A DNA stretch of 61,259 nucleotides, taken from the NCBI GenBank assembly GCA_001915065.1, contig MNDT01000020.1, positions 1 to 61,259 of the forward strand, read 5' to 3'. A program made the position numbers and the translations under genes. Every line of letters begins with the position of its first letter. Position 1 is the stretch's first letter. The notes under the pieces were generated by a model, which had not been told where the DNA came from, did no database searches, and saw only the letters and a program-made list of their open reading frames with translations. This DNA comes from an archaeon 13_2_20CM_2_53_6 (lineage in GTDB: Archaea > Thermoproteota > Bathyarchaeia > 40CM-2-53-6). Below are positions 3,541 to 45,709 of the stretch, one piece after another.

Positions 3541-4071
3541 ATGTCAAGAATCGTGTTCCTCGACTTGGAGACATCGTCTCTCGAAGCGGACGGCGGGATA
3601 ATTGTAGGAGCGGGGGTTATGTCGGAGGCTGGTGAGAGCGAATATTTCGAGGCTAAGAAGACTAGTCATGAGAAGCCTCTGCTCTCGGAGCTTCTCAAGC
3701 GGCTAGAATCCTCCGAGGTAATTGTGACCTGGAGTGGTCGAGGCTTCGACATTCCCTTCCTCACGACCCGGCTATTGAAACATTCAATGGATCCTCGTCC
3801 CGTGCTTGGTATGGTGCACCTTGATCTTAACGAGGTTGTGAAGTCTAGGCTTCGCTTGACCTTTACCTACTTGGATCACGTCTGTGACTTTTTCGGGATC
3901 AGACGCGAGAAGGGGCCAATGGGACTGGAGGTGCCGAGCTTGTTCGTCAAAGCGTTGGAGGGGGATGAGGCCGCTTTGAGGTCGATCCGAGATCACTGTC
4001 TGGATGATTTACGAGTGACCCGCGAGGTTTTCTTGAGACTCAGACCATTGCTAGAGGGGCAGCTCGCCTAG
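3541..4071 (+). CDS. RNase H-fold 3'-5' exonuclease-like protein (YprB/RNase_H_2 type)
   Basis: FLDLETSSLEADGG (DxE exo motif), VTWSGRGFDIPFL, C-terminal HCLDDLRVTREV; ATG at 3541 fits better than the 3433 start. Confidence 0.7.
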   Translation: MSRIVFLDLETSSLEADGGIIVGAGVMSEAGESEYFEAKKTSHEKPLLSELLKRLESSEVIVTWSGRGFDIPFLTTRLLKHSMDPRPVLGMVHLDLNEVVKSRLRLTFTYLDHVCDFFGIRREKGPMGLEVPSLFVKALEGDEAALRSIRDHCLDDLRVTREVFLRLRPLLEGQLA

Positions 4072-4745
4072 AACACGCCGAAGGGTAGAGGAGACCCGAG
4101 GACAGTGGCGAGGATGAAGAGGATGATGAGGTAGAGGCCGAAAAGTCCTATAGTTATCAGGAGGTTCTTCTTCCATTTCTGGCTCCAGGCGATTCCGAAG
4201 GGGATTCCGACTGTGAATCCGATGACGTGGGCAATGTAGGCGACGCTTGGGTCGAAGAGTCCCTGGCCGAGAATGGACGGGTCGGTGACTATGATCGCGT
4301 TGAGGGTGAAGTAGATGATTGCCACTAGTCCCTGTGGTGCAAGAAAGAGCCAGCTGAATTTCAACGGTGACATGAGCATGACGCATGCTGCCAGGGTGAA
4401 GATTGCCGCGCTCGCGCCCAGCATCCCAGTGTCGGGGCTGTAGATACCTACTAGGGGCGGTAGTAGGAAGCTTGTGAACCCGCCGATGAAGAAGACGAGA
4501 AGATGATTGTCTCGGCCAATCATCTTCTCAAGGGTGTTGCCGAAGACGAATAGGAACGGCATGTTTCCCAGAAGATGAGCTACGCTGGCATGGACGAAGA
4601 GTGCAGTAACCAGGGTCCAGAAGCGTCCGGCCAGGAGGTTGTTGAGGCTGAAGACCAGGTTCTGGTCCGCCCAGTTCGGGTCTTGCTGCCACGCGTAGAG
4701 GCTTGCAAGCACGCACCCGAGGATGAGGAACCAGTTGACGCGCAT
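4068..4745 (-). CDS. Rhomboid-family intramembrane serine protease
   Basis: 225 aa multi-TM; FVHASVAHLLGNM, GASAA around the predicted catalytic Ser, AHVIGFTVG with the predicted catalytic His. Confidence 0.8.
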   Translation of the reverse strand: MRVNWFLILGCVLASLYAWQQDPNWADQNLVFSLNNLLAGRFWTLVTALFVHASVAHLLGNMPFLFVFGNTLEKMIGRDNHLLVFFIGGFTSFLLPPLVGIYSPDTGMLGASAAIFTLAACVMLMSPLKFSWLFLAPQGLVAIIYFTLNAIIVTDPSILGQGLFDPSVAYIAHVIGFTVGIPFGIAWSQKWKKNLLITIGLFGLYLIILFILATVLGSPLPFGVF

Positions 4746-5129
4746 AGATCTCGACCTTGGATAACGAAGAGTCGCGAAGTTGGGCTATTTCAGAAATATC
4801 CTACCTTGGAGCGACCAGCAATGTGCAGTCGGTGATGAGAGTCTCTCGGCGGCCATCGGACGCCTGGTAACTTGTAAATCTCTTGATTTGTAGGGTGAGA
4901 AGTTGCCGGGGGAGTCTCGAATTCCTTTCGATCGGTCCTATTGTTACATCGGCTGATGACTTTGATTGGTTTGAATACACTCATCTGGCCTGCATTTTTC
5001 GCCGATCACAAATCTTGATCAGGATATCTGCGGCAGACAATAGGCCCTGTTGTCTATCTCAGGTTCATCGAGCTTGAGAGTCCTGGTTGAGCCCATCCAA
5101 AATATTATATGCCGATAGCCGGGTTAGCG

Positions 5130-5500
5130 GGGAAGTGAGCGATGGATAAGTGTGGACCGCTATGCGTTGAAAATGTGGCTAATCGCGATGCTAGTCTACA
5201 GCTTGTTCTTCTGACCCTCTTATTGCACCGCTCGGGTGGACGAACTTCGAGGGACGCGCCTAAGCGTTATCCTTCTCACGAAGTCGAGTCTGAGCTTCAA
5301 CAGATGAGACCGAATGCTACGGGTCTCGCCCATCTGTCCGGAGTCTCGTAACTGCTTGACGGAACGTCGAGTTCCGTCGATTCATAGTGTTGGGGATAAG
5401 AAGGCCCCCAGGGAAGAAAACCCGAACCAAGAGGAGCTTTGGGCTCTCTTGGGTGGTCATCAGGTTAAGATTCCTGGGGACCCTCTGTACCATTTCATTT
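5130..5500 (+). ncRNA. Candidate structured non-coding RNA, family unknown
   Basis: TATA-like AATATTATATG at about 5100-5110; hairpins 5301-5336, 5356-5380 and nested 5406-5479; T-rich tract after about 5490; no convincing ORF. Boundaries approximate. Confidence 0.4.
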
Positions 5501-5646
5501 CTTATCTATAATAGATTACCCCTCGTATAGATATCGCTGGATTTCGACCGGAAGAGATTTCTTTCCCTTAAAAACGGACGAATTTTCGGGTGGGATTGTT
5601 CGGACAGTTTCTTGGCTGTTGCTACATGTATGCGCTTGTACCACAA

Positions 5647-5689
5647 GACAACACAGTTGTCACAAGTCTTATATCTTGTATTCAATACA
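5647..5689 (+). promoter_or_regulatory. Putative regulated promoter: TATA box flanked by two palindromes
   Basis: GACAAC-ACA-GTTGTC (5647-5661), TTATAT (5669-5674), TGTATT-C-AATACA (5677-5689), upstream of the phosphoesterase/PKD gene. Confidence 0.5.
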
Positions 5690-5775
5690 TAGGGCGTTTG
5701 GTCATCGGGTTGAGGATGAGTACGAGAGTTGTTTTCGGGTAAGACTCTCCGGATAGCCCTTCACGGTAAGGTTCT

Positions 5776-5810
5776 GTTCGCCTTCTCCCTGCCGCCGGGA
5801 GAAGGTGAGC
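5776..5810 (+). promoter_or_regulatory. Leader hairpin overlapping the putative Shine-Dalgarno of the phosphoesterase/PKD gene
   Basis: GTTCGCCTTCTCCC-tgccgcc-GGGAGAAGGTGAGC: 14-bp stem including 2 G-U pairs; contains GGTGA at 5804-5808. Confidence 0.55.
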
Positions 5811-5868
5811 GCTGAGCAAGCACACAACAAGGAGCCTTAGGGCTCTCCTCCTCTGTACGGCCGTTCTG

Positions 5869-8800
5869 ATGAGTGCCACGCTGGCAATCCAGTTATTGGC
5901 ATTGCCGGAATCAACAACTGGAAACGGGTCGAGCTTCAACCACAGCGTCCTAGAGTCAAGCGCTTCTACTACGGTCGGGTTCAACTGTACGGACTGGAAT
6001 TGCAACCCTAGTAATGGTCAGTCTTTGACTGTGGCAGGCAACGGGACGATGGAAGTTCGACAGACGAATACCGCCTGTGGATGGAATGGGACTTACTATG
6101 ATAGCGCGGTGAGAGGTACGCCGCCCCCAGCACAAGGCGGCCCTCAAGGAACGCCTCTTCCACCCGGGCTCTCCACGGTCTCGGTACAAGTAAAGTACCT
6201 GGGAAGTAGGTCAAGCAGTTCCAGCTGTGAAGAATATCACCTATTTGTTTCAATGTATTTCCGGTTGTCTCAAAACGTGACACTGTACTGTTCAGAAGGT
6301 GGAAGAACAGAGAGCTCGAATTATCTCGATACTCAGGTAAGACTTGACAATGTTAACGGTACTGACCGACCACAGCTTTCGAGCCCTGCCTATTGTGGCT
6401 CAGCCGTGGGGGCCTGGGGTTGGAGCAACAATGTCCTTTCCCTATCTCCCGGTCAGGATGGTACACTGACAGCAAATGCAACAACACAGTGCCAGCAGGC
6501 CGAGGCTGCCTGGGGCATCTCTGGAATCCCATGCACGCTGACTGGAATAGAGATAGGGACAGAAGGCTACGGAATCTCCTCGCTAGATACGAACTGGTAC
6601 AGTGTGACATATTCCCTACAGAGCTCTGCTGTTCCTTCCGGTAGCAGTTTCGACCACATTGTCATGATCGCTATGGAAAACCAGTACTACTCGACGGTTC
6701 TCGGCACTGGGACGGGAGCTTCATGCTGTCCGTTTCTAACAAGCCTCCTTCCATACAGCGCTACTATTCCCAGCTTCCACAACTACGGAGCCAACGATTT
6801 CTCAGGGGACACCATCAGCGGCTGTTCGGCTGCCTGCTATACTGCCGAGACATCAGGAGGAACCTACGGTGTATCGGACGGTCTTGCAGGTGGAAGCGTA
6901 AGCGCGACCAACATATTCGACAGGCTGACAGGAGCAGGATTGACATGGAAGGGCTTCTGCGAGGACAACTGCCCACGCAACGCTGACCACTTCCCACTCC
7001 TACAGTACGCTGACACTTACCAGAGCACGTGCGCGGCCGCGTCATCGGAGAACTGTTTCCTCTACACCTGCACAAGCTGCACAGCGGCGGATGTCTCTGA
7101 TTCGCAGCTAATCGCAGAGCTCAACTCTCCCAGCCCAGCCAACTACATCTGGTTCACTCCAACAGATGAGCATAACATGCACAATGTCCCACCCTCATCG
7201 GGAGACGCTTATCTCAAGCAGATCCTCGTCGGAACAGGCACCGTCTCCAGTCCTTCCCCCGGTAGCATGCTCAGTACAACAGCCTTCACTTCGGGCCATA
7301 CCCTCCTCTACATCTGGTTCGACGAGTATGATCCCTCTCCAAACCTTCTCTACGAGCCAGGCATAGTCCGTTCAGGTTTCATCTCGACAGCTAACAACTA
7401 TGACGAATACGCCAGCCTCCACACCATAGAGAACAACTGGAGCCTGCTAGGTCTAAACCTTGATACCAACGCTCCTCTCATCTCAGACATTTTCAGCCCG
7501 ACTACTTCCATGTCCGCGGCTTTCACCTACACTCCACCCGTGCCTACCGCGGGAACCGCCGTGACGTTCGTGGCCTCGGCTATTGGAGGAACGCCAGTGT
7601 ACACATATTCGTGGGACTTTGGCGATGGAACAAGTGGAACAGGATCATCCAGCACACACGCCTATTCATCAGCAGGGTCATACAATGTTCTAATGACTGT
7701 CAAGGACAACGGTTCACCACAACAGACAGCACCGTCCCAACAGACCGTCACAGTCACGAGCCCACCTCCGCCTCTCAGCGCCAGCTTCACATTTAGTCCC
7801 TCATCACCTGCGACGGAACAGCAGGTCACATTCACCGCCTCATCAACTGGTGGAACTGCTCCGTACAGTTACAGCTGGTCTTTCGGCGATGGGTCGATAG
7901 GAACAGGCTCTACCTCAACGCACGCTTACTCATCCGCAGGAAGCTTCACTGTGACTCTGACTGTGAAGGATACTGGTTCGCCTCAGCAGACGGTAACGTC
8001 TCAGAAAACCGTCACAGTCACAAGTCCGCCTCCCACCCTGACCGCCAGCTTCATCTATAGTCCGTCTTCGCCCCAGACGGGTCAGCAGGTAACCTTTACC
8101 GCCTCGGCGGGTGGTGGTACAACACCCTATAGCTTCAGCTGGTCGTTTGGAGACGGATCAACCGGAACAGGCGCCTCGGTAACACACGCATACTCGTCGG
8201 CAGGGTCCTTCACTGTCACCCTGACTGTCAAAGACAGTGGTTCGCCCCAACAGACAGTCACTTCACAACAAACCGTCTCAGTCAGCAACCCTCCTCCGGC
8301 TCTGACAGCAAGCATCACCTATAGTCCGTCCTCTCCGCAGGCTGGACAGCAAGTCACGTTTACCGCTTCAGCCAGTGGTGGAACCGCGCCCTATTCTTTC
8401 ACATGGGACTTCGGTGACGGCTCAACCGGAACAGGCTCGTCTGCTGCTCACACCTACTCGTCGGCGGGAACCTTTAACGTCGCTTTGACCACCAGAGATA
8501 GTGGTTCTCCTCAACAGACTGCGAATTCGCAACAGCCTGTGACTGTGACCATCACCACTCTAACTGCCAGCTTCAGCTATGATCCTTCCTCACCCCAAGT
8601 TGGACAAGTTGTAACGTTCACAGCCTCTGCCAGCGGCGGGACGTCTCCGTATGCCTTTAGCTGGAATTTTGGCGACGGATCCACGGCTGTCGGCTCATCA
8701 GCTACCCACGCTTATTCCTCTCCAGGCAGCTTTAATGCTGTTCTAATAGTCAACGATAGCGGTGTTCCAAACCAGACGGCTAGTTCTCGCCAGACCGTCA

Positions 8801-10686
8801 GCGTCACTCCTCCTCTATTGACAGCCAATTTCACCTACAGTCCATCCTCACCACAGGCCGGACAGCAGATCACATTCACAGCCTCAGAATTGGGAGGGAC
8901 AGCACCCTACTCCTTCAACTGGACGTTTGGTGACTTATCAAATGCTACAGGGTCAACGGCAGCTTACACATACTCATCGACAGGAAATTTCAGCGTCACA
9001 CTGACCATCAAGGATAGTGGCTCGTCACAGCAGACGGCCACCTCCTCCACAACAATAGATGTCTCTCCGACGCCTACTTCTACGGCTGTAGCTTGTCCAG
9101 GAACGGGCATCGTCAGTGTAAGCCTGATATGCAGTGTCACAGTCGCCGACACCGCGTTTGGGATTATCAGCATGCCAACCGGTTTCGTCTCGGTTAATTC
9201 GAGTATCGGTTGCTTCCTCTCTAGCGGCTTATGCACTGTGAACATAACCTCATCAGTCTCAGGTAGCCTCGACGTATCCGCAAGCTACGGAGGAGATGCC
9301 GGACATCTCGCCAGCATCAGTCCTCCCGTACTAGTAAGGATCAATAGTCGTGAGACTTCAATGGTGGTTACTTGTGCTCCGTCGACTCTGACGCTAGGCC
9401 AGGACACTACCTGTTCCGCTACTGTGACTGACACGTCGCCTGGTATGACTAATACCCCATCCGGCAACGTGACCTTCACTCCTATCGGCGTCTTTGCACT
9501 AACGGGCACTGGAGCTTCGGCCAGCTGCTCAACAAACATCGCTACAACTGCCGTAGGGAAGCTGTCGATCTCCGCCGCCTACCTCGGTGACTCGAATCAC
9601 AATGCCAGTTCGGGAATCACGACGGTCGATGTGCTCCCGCTTCCGCCACCACCCTTCGTGGCCGATCTTGCCTTCATTCCCAACAGCCCTGTAACGGGTC
9701 AAACGGTCAACTTCACAGCGACCGTTACCGGCGGATCGCCCCCCTACACCTACTCTTGGAGCTTCGGCGACGGCACCATAGACTCTGGAAGCCCTACCAG
9801 CCACACGTATGAAAACGTCAACACCTACTCCGTCGTCCTGATCGTGACGGACGCGAACCGAACAACCTTCTCTGACACTAAATTACTCGCCGTAAAAGTC
9901 ACACCAAATCCCCCCATTATCCTTACAGTTCCAAGCAACCAGTCGATCGATCACGGTTCGAATCTAACATTCAACGTGACAGCGGTGGAGGACTCGCCAC
10001 AGCAGATTAGCATATCATGTGTGTCCTGCCCTAGTCTAGGCGCGGATTTCACATTCAACAGCGGCCCCGGTGCCGCGTATGGAACGTTCAGCTGGACCCC
10101 TTCCGAAGCGCAAGCCCCGGGAATATACTTTGTAGTCTTGTCCTCAACGGATGGAACACAGATCGTAAACGCGACCGCTACAGTAACCGTCAACGAGTAT
10201 AACGTACCCCCGGTTTTACATGTCCCTGACACTCTTACCGTCCGGGACGGAGAGACCCTTCAGTTTACAGTGAACGCAACAGACTCTGATGCTCCATTCG
10301 AGAATGTCACTTTGACAGCCATCGGGCTTCCAGATGGCGCGTCGTTCGACCCCGAGACAGGGGTCTTCTACTGGCCCATCCAAGGAGTCCAGCCTGGCCC
10401 GTACACTCTCACTTTCACGGCCACGGATAATGGCGTTCCGGCTCTCCAAGATTCGCAGATCGTCGTAGTCCATGTGAATAATGGGAACGGCCGATGTTTC
10501 ATCTGCGAGATGTTTCTTGAATCGCAGCTGGGCGTGAACCCGAGCCCATTGATCCTCATCCTGCGGGCGATGGTTGCGTTGATGGGATTTCTCTCGGTAA
10601 TAACAATGAAATATTTGAAAGATCATGGACGAGAGAGGGTCAAACGCACGGTCCAACATTCTGGCGATGTCGAGAACGCATCATAA
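5869..10686 (+). CDS. Giant secreted/membrane-anchored phosphoesterase (phospholipase C/acid phosphatase-like) with multiple PKD and Ig-like domains
   Basis: 1605 aa; FDHIVMIAMENQYYSTVLG, TPTDEHNMHN, WFDEYDPSPN, YASLHTIENNWSL (phosphoesterase family); at least 6 PKD repeats (YSWSFGDGSxGTGSxxTHAYSSAGSFTVTLTVKDSGSPQQT); C-terminal TM then basic tail. Reading frame extends upstream to a CTG at 5812. Confidence 0.85.
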   Translation: MSATLAIQLLALPESTTGNGSSFNHSVLESSASTTVGFNCTDWNCNPSNGQSLTVAGNGTMEVRQTNTACGWNGTYYDSAVRGTPPPAQGGPQGTPLPPGLSTVSVQVKYLGSRSSSSSCEEYHLFVSMYFRLSQNVTLYCSEGGRTESSNYLDTQVRLDNVNGTDRPQLSSPAYCGSAVGAWGWSNNVLSLSPGQDGTLTANATTQCQQAEAAWGISGIPCTLTGIEIGTEGYGISSLDTNWYSVTYSLQSSAVPSGSSFDHIVMIAMENQYYSTVLGTGTGASCCPFLTSLLPYSATIPSFHNYGANDFSGDTISGCSAACYTAETSGGTYGVSDGLAGGSVSATNIFDRLTGAGLTWKGFCEDNCPRNADHFPLLQYADTYQSTCAAASSENCFLYTCTSCTAADVSDSQLIAELNSPSPANYIWFTPTDEHNMHNVPPSSGDAYLKQILVGTGTVSSPSPGSMLSTTAFTSGHTLLYIWFDEYDPSPNLLYEPGIVRSGFISTANNYDEYASLHTIENNWSLLGLNLDTNAPLISDIFSPTTSMSAAFTYTPPVPTAGTAVTFVASAIGGTPVYTYSWDFGDGTSGTGSSSTHAYSSAGSYNVLMTVKDNGSPQQTAPSQQTVTVTSPPPPLSASFTFSPSSPATEQQVTFTASSTGGTAPYSYSWSFGDGSIGTGSTSTHAYSSAGSFTVTLTVKDTGSPQQTVTSQKTVTVTSPPPTLTASFIYSPSSPQTGQQVTFTASAGGGTTPYSFSWSFGDGSTGTGASVTHAYSSAGSFTVTLTVKDSGSPQQTVTSQQTVSVSNPPPALTASITYSPSSPQAGQQVTFTASASGGTAPYSFTWDFGDGSTGTGSSAAHTYSSAGTFNVALTTRDSGSPQQTANSQQPVTVTITTLTASFSYDPSSPQVGQVVTFTASASGGTSPYAFSWNFGDGSTAVGSSATHAYSSPGSFNAVLIVNDSGVPNQTASSRQTVSVTPPLLTANFTYSPSSPQAGQQITFTASELGGTAPYSFNWTFGDLSNATGSTAAYTYSSTGNFSVTLTIKDSGSSQQTATSSTTIDVSPTPTSTAVACPGTGIVSVSLICSVTVADTAFGIISMPTGFVSVNSSIGCFLSSGLCTVNITSSVSGSLDVSASYGGDAGHLASISPPVLVRINSRETSMVVTCAPSTLTLGQDTTCSATVTDTSPGMTNTPSGNVTFTPIGVFALTGTGASASCSTNIATTAVGKLSISAAYLGDSNHNASSGITTVDVLPLPPPPFVADLAFIPNSPVTGQTVNFTATVTGGSPPYTYSWSFGDGTIDSGSPTSHTYENVNTYSVVLIVTDANRTTFSDTKLLAVKVTPNPPIILTVPSNQSIDHGSNLTFNVTAVEDSPQQISISCVSCPSLGADFTFNSGPGAAYGTFSWTPSEAQAPGIYFVVLSSTDGTQIVNATATVTVNEYNVPPVLHVPDTLTVRDGETLQFTVNATDSDAPFENVTLTAIGLPDGASFDPETGVFYWPIQGVQPGPYTLTFTATDNGVPALQDSQIVVVHVNNGNGRCFICEMFLESQLGVNPSPLILILRAMVALMGFLSVITMKYLKDHGRERVKRTVQHSGDVENAS
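7510..9060 (+). repeat. Tandem about 260-bp repeats encoding PKD domains
   Basis: Recurring DNA/protein unit (SFTYSPSSPQAGQQVTFTASASGGTxPYSFxWxFGDGSTGTGSS...) at about 260 bp spacing. Confidence 0.85.
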
Positions 10687-45599: not shown

Positions 45600-45709
45600 T
45601 GGCGCCGGGAGTGGGATTTGAACCCACGAGGGCCTAAGGCCCATCGGATTTCCACACCCGGACCTCAGGTTTAGCAATCCGACGCCATACCTGGCTAGGC
45701 GATCCCGGC
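45600..45709 (-). tRNA. tRNA-Ser(GCT) with intron and long variable arm, CCA encoded
   Basis: Reverse strand GCCGGGA...TCGGA-TTGCTA-[intron]-A-TCCGA-TGGGCCTTAGGCCCTC-GTGGG-TTCAAAT-CCCAC-TCCCGGC-G-CCA; about 21-nt insertion (about 45650-45670) at canonical 37/38. Confidence 0.9.

Follow-up and report, generated by a model that had tools for sequence, protein, structure and literature searches.

OrzO/zorO and IstR/tisB are type I toxin-antitoxin pairs with divergently encoded small RNAs (sRNAs), and OrzO pairs with its neighbour's mRNA over 18 nt, of which 15 are sufficient (PMC3919570). Identifying what intergenic archaeal sRNAs act on is difficult, and few of their mechanisms have been worked out (PMC5867862); our literature search brought up no target or mechanism for an intergenic sRNA of Bathyarchaeia. 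The locus described here resembles OrzO/zorO and IstR/tisB in that a small RNA lies divergent from its putative target gene and would pair with the target mRNA over a limited stretch (PMC3919570). It departs from them in several ways: the predicted target codes for a sizeable secreted enzyme and not for a small hydrophobic toxin; a hairpin houses the seed, and the complementary site occupies the mRNA's 5′ terminus; the host is an archaeon; and the two genes are co-directional in two genomes and unlinked in one. Because the predicted target, a phosphoesterase with PKD repeats, is no small toxin, we do not file the pair as a type I toxin-antitoxin system. Methanosarcina mazei sRNA162 is likewise an archaeal sRNA that pairs with a 5′ untranslated region and occurs only in close relatives, but it has three stem loops and other targets (PMC3510493). 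Haloferax volcanii sRNA132 is tied, as here, to phosphate-related genes, but its predicted sites fall in ORFs and 3′ UTRs across a large regulon, and no single adjacent gene is its partner (PMC6560208).

We analysed a stretch of 61,259 nucleotides (the window) from a soil Bathyarchaeota metagenome-assembled genome (MAG), together with relatives that include the MAGs BA_3, BA_4, BA_7, and BA_12. The evidence is genomic sequence throughout, drawn from incomplete MAGs whose RNA copies share ancestry. With high confidence, we propose that the window encodes a member of a new archaeal family of ~80-nt sRNAs, each with its own TATA promoter, predicted to base-pair with the 5′ end of one secreted phosphoesterase/PKD mRNA. 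A first-pass annotation had described an ORF-poor gap containing a structured RNA, and we indeed find no long ORF between the rhomboid gene (4068–4745, minus strand) and the phosphoesterase/PKD gene on the plus strand. A structured RNA is present in the gap, is conserved in relatives, and covaries; its strand, length, promoter, and extent are other than proposed. The RNA gene comprises the following features:

5403–5482, minus strand: sRNA gene of ~80 nt, with P1 (5473–5482/5403–5412) enclosing P2 and P3; covariance-model score of 90.9 bits, folding z-score of −4.40, covariation in P1 and P3.
5507–5513, minus strand: TATA box of the sRNA (TATTATA), ~27 nt ahead of the predicted start; a similar box at equal distance in 18 of 18 copies.
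5455–5466, minus strand: seed AACCUGAUGACC, made of the P2 5′ strand and most of the bulge UGACCAC; nearly invariant.

Several observations place the gene on the minus strand, where the first-pass annotation had read a plus-strand RNA of ~370 nt. The minus strand of 5403–5482 folds with −40.5 kcal/mol, a stability that none of 200 shuffled sequences equals, while the plus strand reaches a z-score of only −1.94. P2 carries an invariant U·G pair that becomes an A·C mismatch when read on the plus strand, and the apical helix is capped in three relatives by a cUUCGg tetraloop, again on the minus strand. All copies, even one that has diverged strongly, carry a TATA-like box ~27 nt ahead of the P1 base; this is the archaeal spacing between TATA box and start, and it fits a start at the hairpin base. 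Together, the strand-specific folding, the U·G pair, the tetraloop, and the TATA spacing point to a minus-strand RNA of ~80–90 nt whose TATA box occupies 5507–5513. By these sequence features, the gap RNA is a discrete small RNA gene with its own promoter, from which we infer that it is transcribed.

The longer plus-strand RNA has real features in its favor, since the TATA-like box at ~5100 and all three hairpins that had been assigned to it exist. The box, however, lies outside the conserved region, and only the 5406–5412/5473–5479 arm belongs to the conserved element. The other two hairpins, 5301–5336 (z-score of −2.2) and 5358–5378 (z-score of −3.6), are clear only in G007, a genome 92–94% identical to this one, with a possible weak counterpart of the latter in G011. 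When 5080–5540 was searched as DNA against 61 genomes, matches outside G007 were confined to parts of 5398–5540, and the conserved core shrinks to ~5417–5470 in more distant genomes. The T-rich sequence seen at ~5490 is the promoter region of the minus-strand gene, read on the opposite strand. With conservation, promoter, and folding all contrary, we dropped the 370-nt RNA, which we regard as scarcely credible.

A covariance-model search found 17 copies of the RNA in 13 soil Bathyarchaeota genomes, plus one divergent paralogue in G010. The RNA-bearing genomes are 12 of the 18 in the genus and one from another genus, all within one taxonomic family, and four of them carry two copies of the main type each. 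The model returned nothing credible elsewhere among 257 genomes of the class or 398 of the phylum, where a weak score in G191 looks like chance. Pattern and model searches of viral contigs gave matches without a convincing P1 that also look like chance, and the scattered bacterial matches to the exact pattern were discarded on the same ground. The check for covariation, which the first-pass annotation had called for, bears the structure out. P1 shows changes on both sides in seven of its ten pairs. P3 is wholly invariant in the main group, and in the divergent G010 copy (L095:1501–1578), which retains CCUGA..ACCA..UUCGGG, five of seven P3 pairs are swapped for other standard pairs. With this paralogue included, both-sided changes occur in 12 pairs of P1 and P3 combined, a covariation score matched by none of 500 shuffles and destroyed by sliding the pairing partner. 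Unlike these covarying outer and apical stems, the inner core of P2 and bulge hardly varies: the seed AACCUGAUGACC is constant across the 17 copies, save for a change of its first base from A to G in G008 and G010.

The divergent G010 paralogue (L159:7941–8018; G010:C67) has a different seed and P3 and is directly divergent from an HD-domain gene, with an integrase ~6.5 kb away; a search for a target matching its variant seed found none. The second copies in four genomes (L029:6120–6195, L030:13062–13137, L028:4213–4288, and L031:5631–5707) lie near a thymidylate kinase gene, have no target in their own neighborhood, and resemble the RNAs of G017 and G004 more than they resemble the companion copy of their own genome.

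Comparison with Rfam 15 gave no family match for the gap RNA at gathering score or with a significant E-value, consistent with the earlier view that it belongs to no known family. SRP RNA and RNase P RNA, whose signatures the first-pass annotation had not found, have no match at the locus, and the genome's own copies are on contigs C20 and C41. H/ACA and C/D guide RNAs were rejected on inspection of the aligned copies, which lack a 3′ ACA and show neither a box D nor GA pairs opposite UGAUGA, and by the lack of an Rfam guide-RNA match. A hammerhead-like CUGAUGA core was rejected by Rfam searches and inspection. Separately, Rfam identified a tRNA at 45603–45709 of the window on the minus strand (46.8 bits) that ARAGORN missed, and its 107-nt span suggests an intron.

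The invariant inner helices resemble binding sites, as would be expected if the RNA bound a protein or ligand, or served as the cis-leader of a downstream gene, and had no connection with the phosphoesterase. The genes downstream of the RNA, however, vary among genomes (rhomboid, thymidylate kinase, nadC, and others) and begin hundreds of bases away, for which reason a riboswitch or cis-leader was rejected. Such a role also gives no reason for a complementary site in 13 of 13 phosphoesterase leaders, and we consider it very unlikely. We favor a base-pairing RNA, in which P2 and the bulge are invariant because they are complementary to the 5′ end of the phosphoesterase mRNA; the seed gives no account of the invariance of P3. 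The features of the target gene are:

5668–5675, plus strand: TATA box of the phosphoesterase mRNA, aligned in 13 leaders.
5700–5711, plus strand: target GGUCAUCGGGUU, at the predicted 5′ end of the phosphoesterase mRNA; in 13 of 13 RNA-bearing genomes.
5781–5805, plus strand: leader hairpin CCUUCUCCC/GGGAGAAGG; relatives' leaders show similar arms.
5812–10686, plus strand: target gene, a secreted phosphoesterase with PKD repeats (Pfam PF04185); signal-peptide frame in relatives.

The phosphoesterase mRNA is predicted to start at ~5698, so that its 5′ end reads UUGGUCAUCGGGUUGAGG, and the target site lies ~220 nt from the RNA gene. Between GGUCAUCGGGUU and the seed there are 11 Watson-Crick pairs and one G·U pair, extended by the flanks to 17 contiguous pairs. 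The target consensus, GGTCATC[A/G]GGTT (GGUCAUC(A/G)GGUU in the mRNA), is found at a nearly constant distance from the TATA box in the RNA-adjoining phosphoesterase leader of 12 genomes. In the thirteenth, G002, no phosphoesterase lies beside the RNA; a genome-wide scan for the target sequence alone located it on a different contig, where it precedes a phosphoesterase-like gene whose promoter spacing, leader hairpin, and junction match those of the other genomes. One target-bearing phosphoesterase leader is thus present in each of the 13 RNA-bearing genomes, a raw count over genomes of shared ancestry. Among the matches inspected in eight genomes of the family that lack the RNA, no target copy is preceded by a TATA box, and a few stray 12-mers occur without one. 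The other genome-wide copies that were inspected also have no TATA box, and a reversed-pattern control gives a similar number.

The extent of pairing sets these leaders apart. Allowing G·U, contiguous pairing with the seed region reaches 14–17 bp in the 13 targets versus at most 12 bp in 108 controls, taken from the 450 nt upstream of other phosphoesterase domains. This comparison used the seed region only; with the whole RNA, a longest-helix control was confounded by the G/U-rich 3′ half, which pairs indiscriminately, and by stretches that contained the RNA gene itself. The phosphoesterase/PKD gene is the divergent neighbor of the RNA in most genomes (10 divergent, two co-directional, one unlinked). 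The complementarity is held across these arrangements, and therefore the conserved relation is most probably between transcripts and not a fixed DNA repeat. Two positions of the 12 bp vary (A/G in the target; A/G in the RNA of G008 and G010), and each retains a standard or G·U pair; across the copies, we saw only single changes tolerated by G·U and no double compensatory change. On this evidence, the locus has the attributes of a base-pairing sRNA: a discrete structured RNA with its own predicted promoter, and conserved complementarity to a target mRNA leader, spanning 14–17 bp in 13 of 13 genomes.

Alternatively, the shared 12-mer could be an operator in the DNA, recognized by a single transcription factor a short way downstream of each of the two promoters, with the hairpin incidental or serving another function. 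Its position near and downstream of the promoter in both genes, in a fixed orientation to each, would suit an operator. In the RNA gene, however, it falls exactly on the bulge and P2 strand, inside the surrounding covarying structure; its variants are those that G·U pairing tolerates, the complementarity runs beyond the 12-mer to 14–17 bp, and no other promoter carrying it was found in 21 genomes. We consider an operator improbable and retain RNA-RNA pairing.

The architecture suggests how the sRNA may engage its target. The unpaired bulge UGACCA would act as a toehold, making its initial contact with the mRNA's 5′-terminal UGGUCA. Pairing would then spread into P2, with the mRNA UC(A/G)GGUU displacing the RNA's own P2 3′ strand, UCGGGUU, to give a duplex of 14–17 bp over about +1 to +18 of the mRNA. 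The net dimer energy predicted by cofold is −1.1 kcal/mol in G000 (the genome of this window) and up to −15.7 kcal/mol in other genomes; the small value in G000 arises because P2 must open, and the modest net energy means that a chaperone or co-transcriptional pairing may matter. The duplex would most likely block ribosome loading at the 5′ end, or translation of the leader, and so repress the phosphoesterase.

The leader itself bears on the direction of control. The signal-peptide frame apparently opens at CTG 5812, with the first ATG at 5869, so that the target site is more than 100 nt from the apparent coding start. In eight of the 13 genomes, a leader frame runs uninterrupted from a UUG within the target site to a stop that adjoins the apparent signal-peptide start, the junction reading CUGA, or UAACG in G004. 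If pairing blocked this 5′-terminal start, the leader frame and the enzyme would be silenced together. A common hairpin and short reading frame were observed in the leaders of the window (5698–5815), L021, L022, L024–L027, L029, L030, L032–L034, and L284. The short frames end alike (e.g., FSLRPGD.., LSHLRLGD.., FSLKLGEG..), and their stop overlaps the CTG at which the signal peptide apparently starts in the −1 frame, with no fitting ATG, GTG, or TTG. A non-AUG start or coupled translation is possible at this junction.

Should pairing occur, we judge repression the likeliest outcome, at somewhat better than even chances. The main alternative is activation through the same pairing, with the RNA, for example, protecting and stabilizing the mRNA by shielding its 5′ end from exonuclease, or remodelling the leader to keep it translatable. 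The site at the extreme 5′ end, so far from the apparent coding start, makes direct masking of that start unlikely, and an archaeal sRNA of phosphate starvation has a positive effect on its targets (PMC6560208). Activation is harder to square with the eight leaders whose frame starts on the target, which pairing would block. A two-state leader, in which the target pairs with an arm of its own hairpin, was rejected: the positions are consistent, but the pairing is no better than in shuffled sequence, which also speaks against activation. We hold activation to be a possible outcome, though a rather doubtful one, and keep repression as the working model.

The enzyme behind the leader is variable. 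The target proteins range from ~640 to 1900 amino acids, and the RNA-linked phosphoesterases are spread over several clades in a tree of 120 sequences. G000 and G007 are 92% identical over 3718–5892, a stretch running from the rhomboid gene across the RNA and the leader into the signal-peptide start. Past 5892, barely within the gene, DNA homology ceases, and the encoded enzymes share ~43% identity. Similarly, the loci of G006 and G014 are 79–84% identical except for a catalytic-domain stretch too different to align as DNA. Coding sequences thus appear swapped or remodelled between near-identical loci (window 5869–10686; L021; L029 versus L030). By sequence comparison, the pair of RNA and leader is stable while the coding sequence behind it changes. 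PF04185 genes are strongly expanded in the 21 genomes of the family, with up to ~12 matches per genome, many of them with PKD repeats.

The conserved complementarity points to an RNA switch for the phosphoesterase gene. Its notable traits are a seed within a stem and bulge, a target site right at the mRNA's 5′ terminus, and a pairing that outlasts replacement of the coding sequence; as the RNA, promoter, seed, target site, and co-occurrence all come from sequence, the mechanism is directly testable. We tentatively suggest that the sRNA and the leader, with its short ORF and CUGA junction, form a fixed expression module in these uncultured archaea, one that persists as the secreted phosphoesterase behind it is exchanged or remodelled. 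In that case, the RNA would govern an interchangeable surface enzyme through invasion of a 5′-terminal, possibly leaderless, initiation site.
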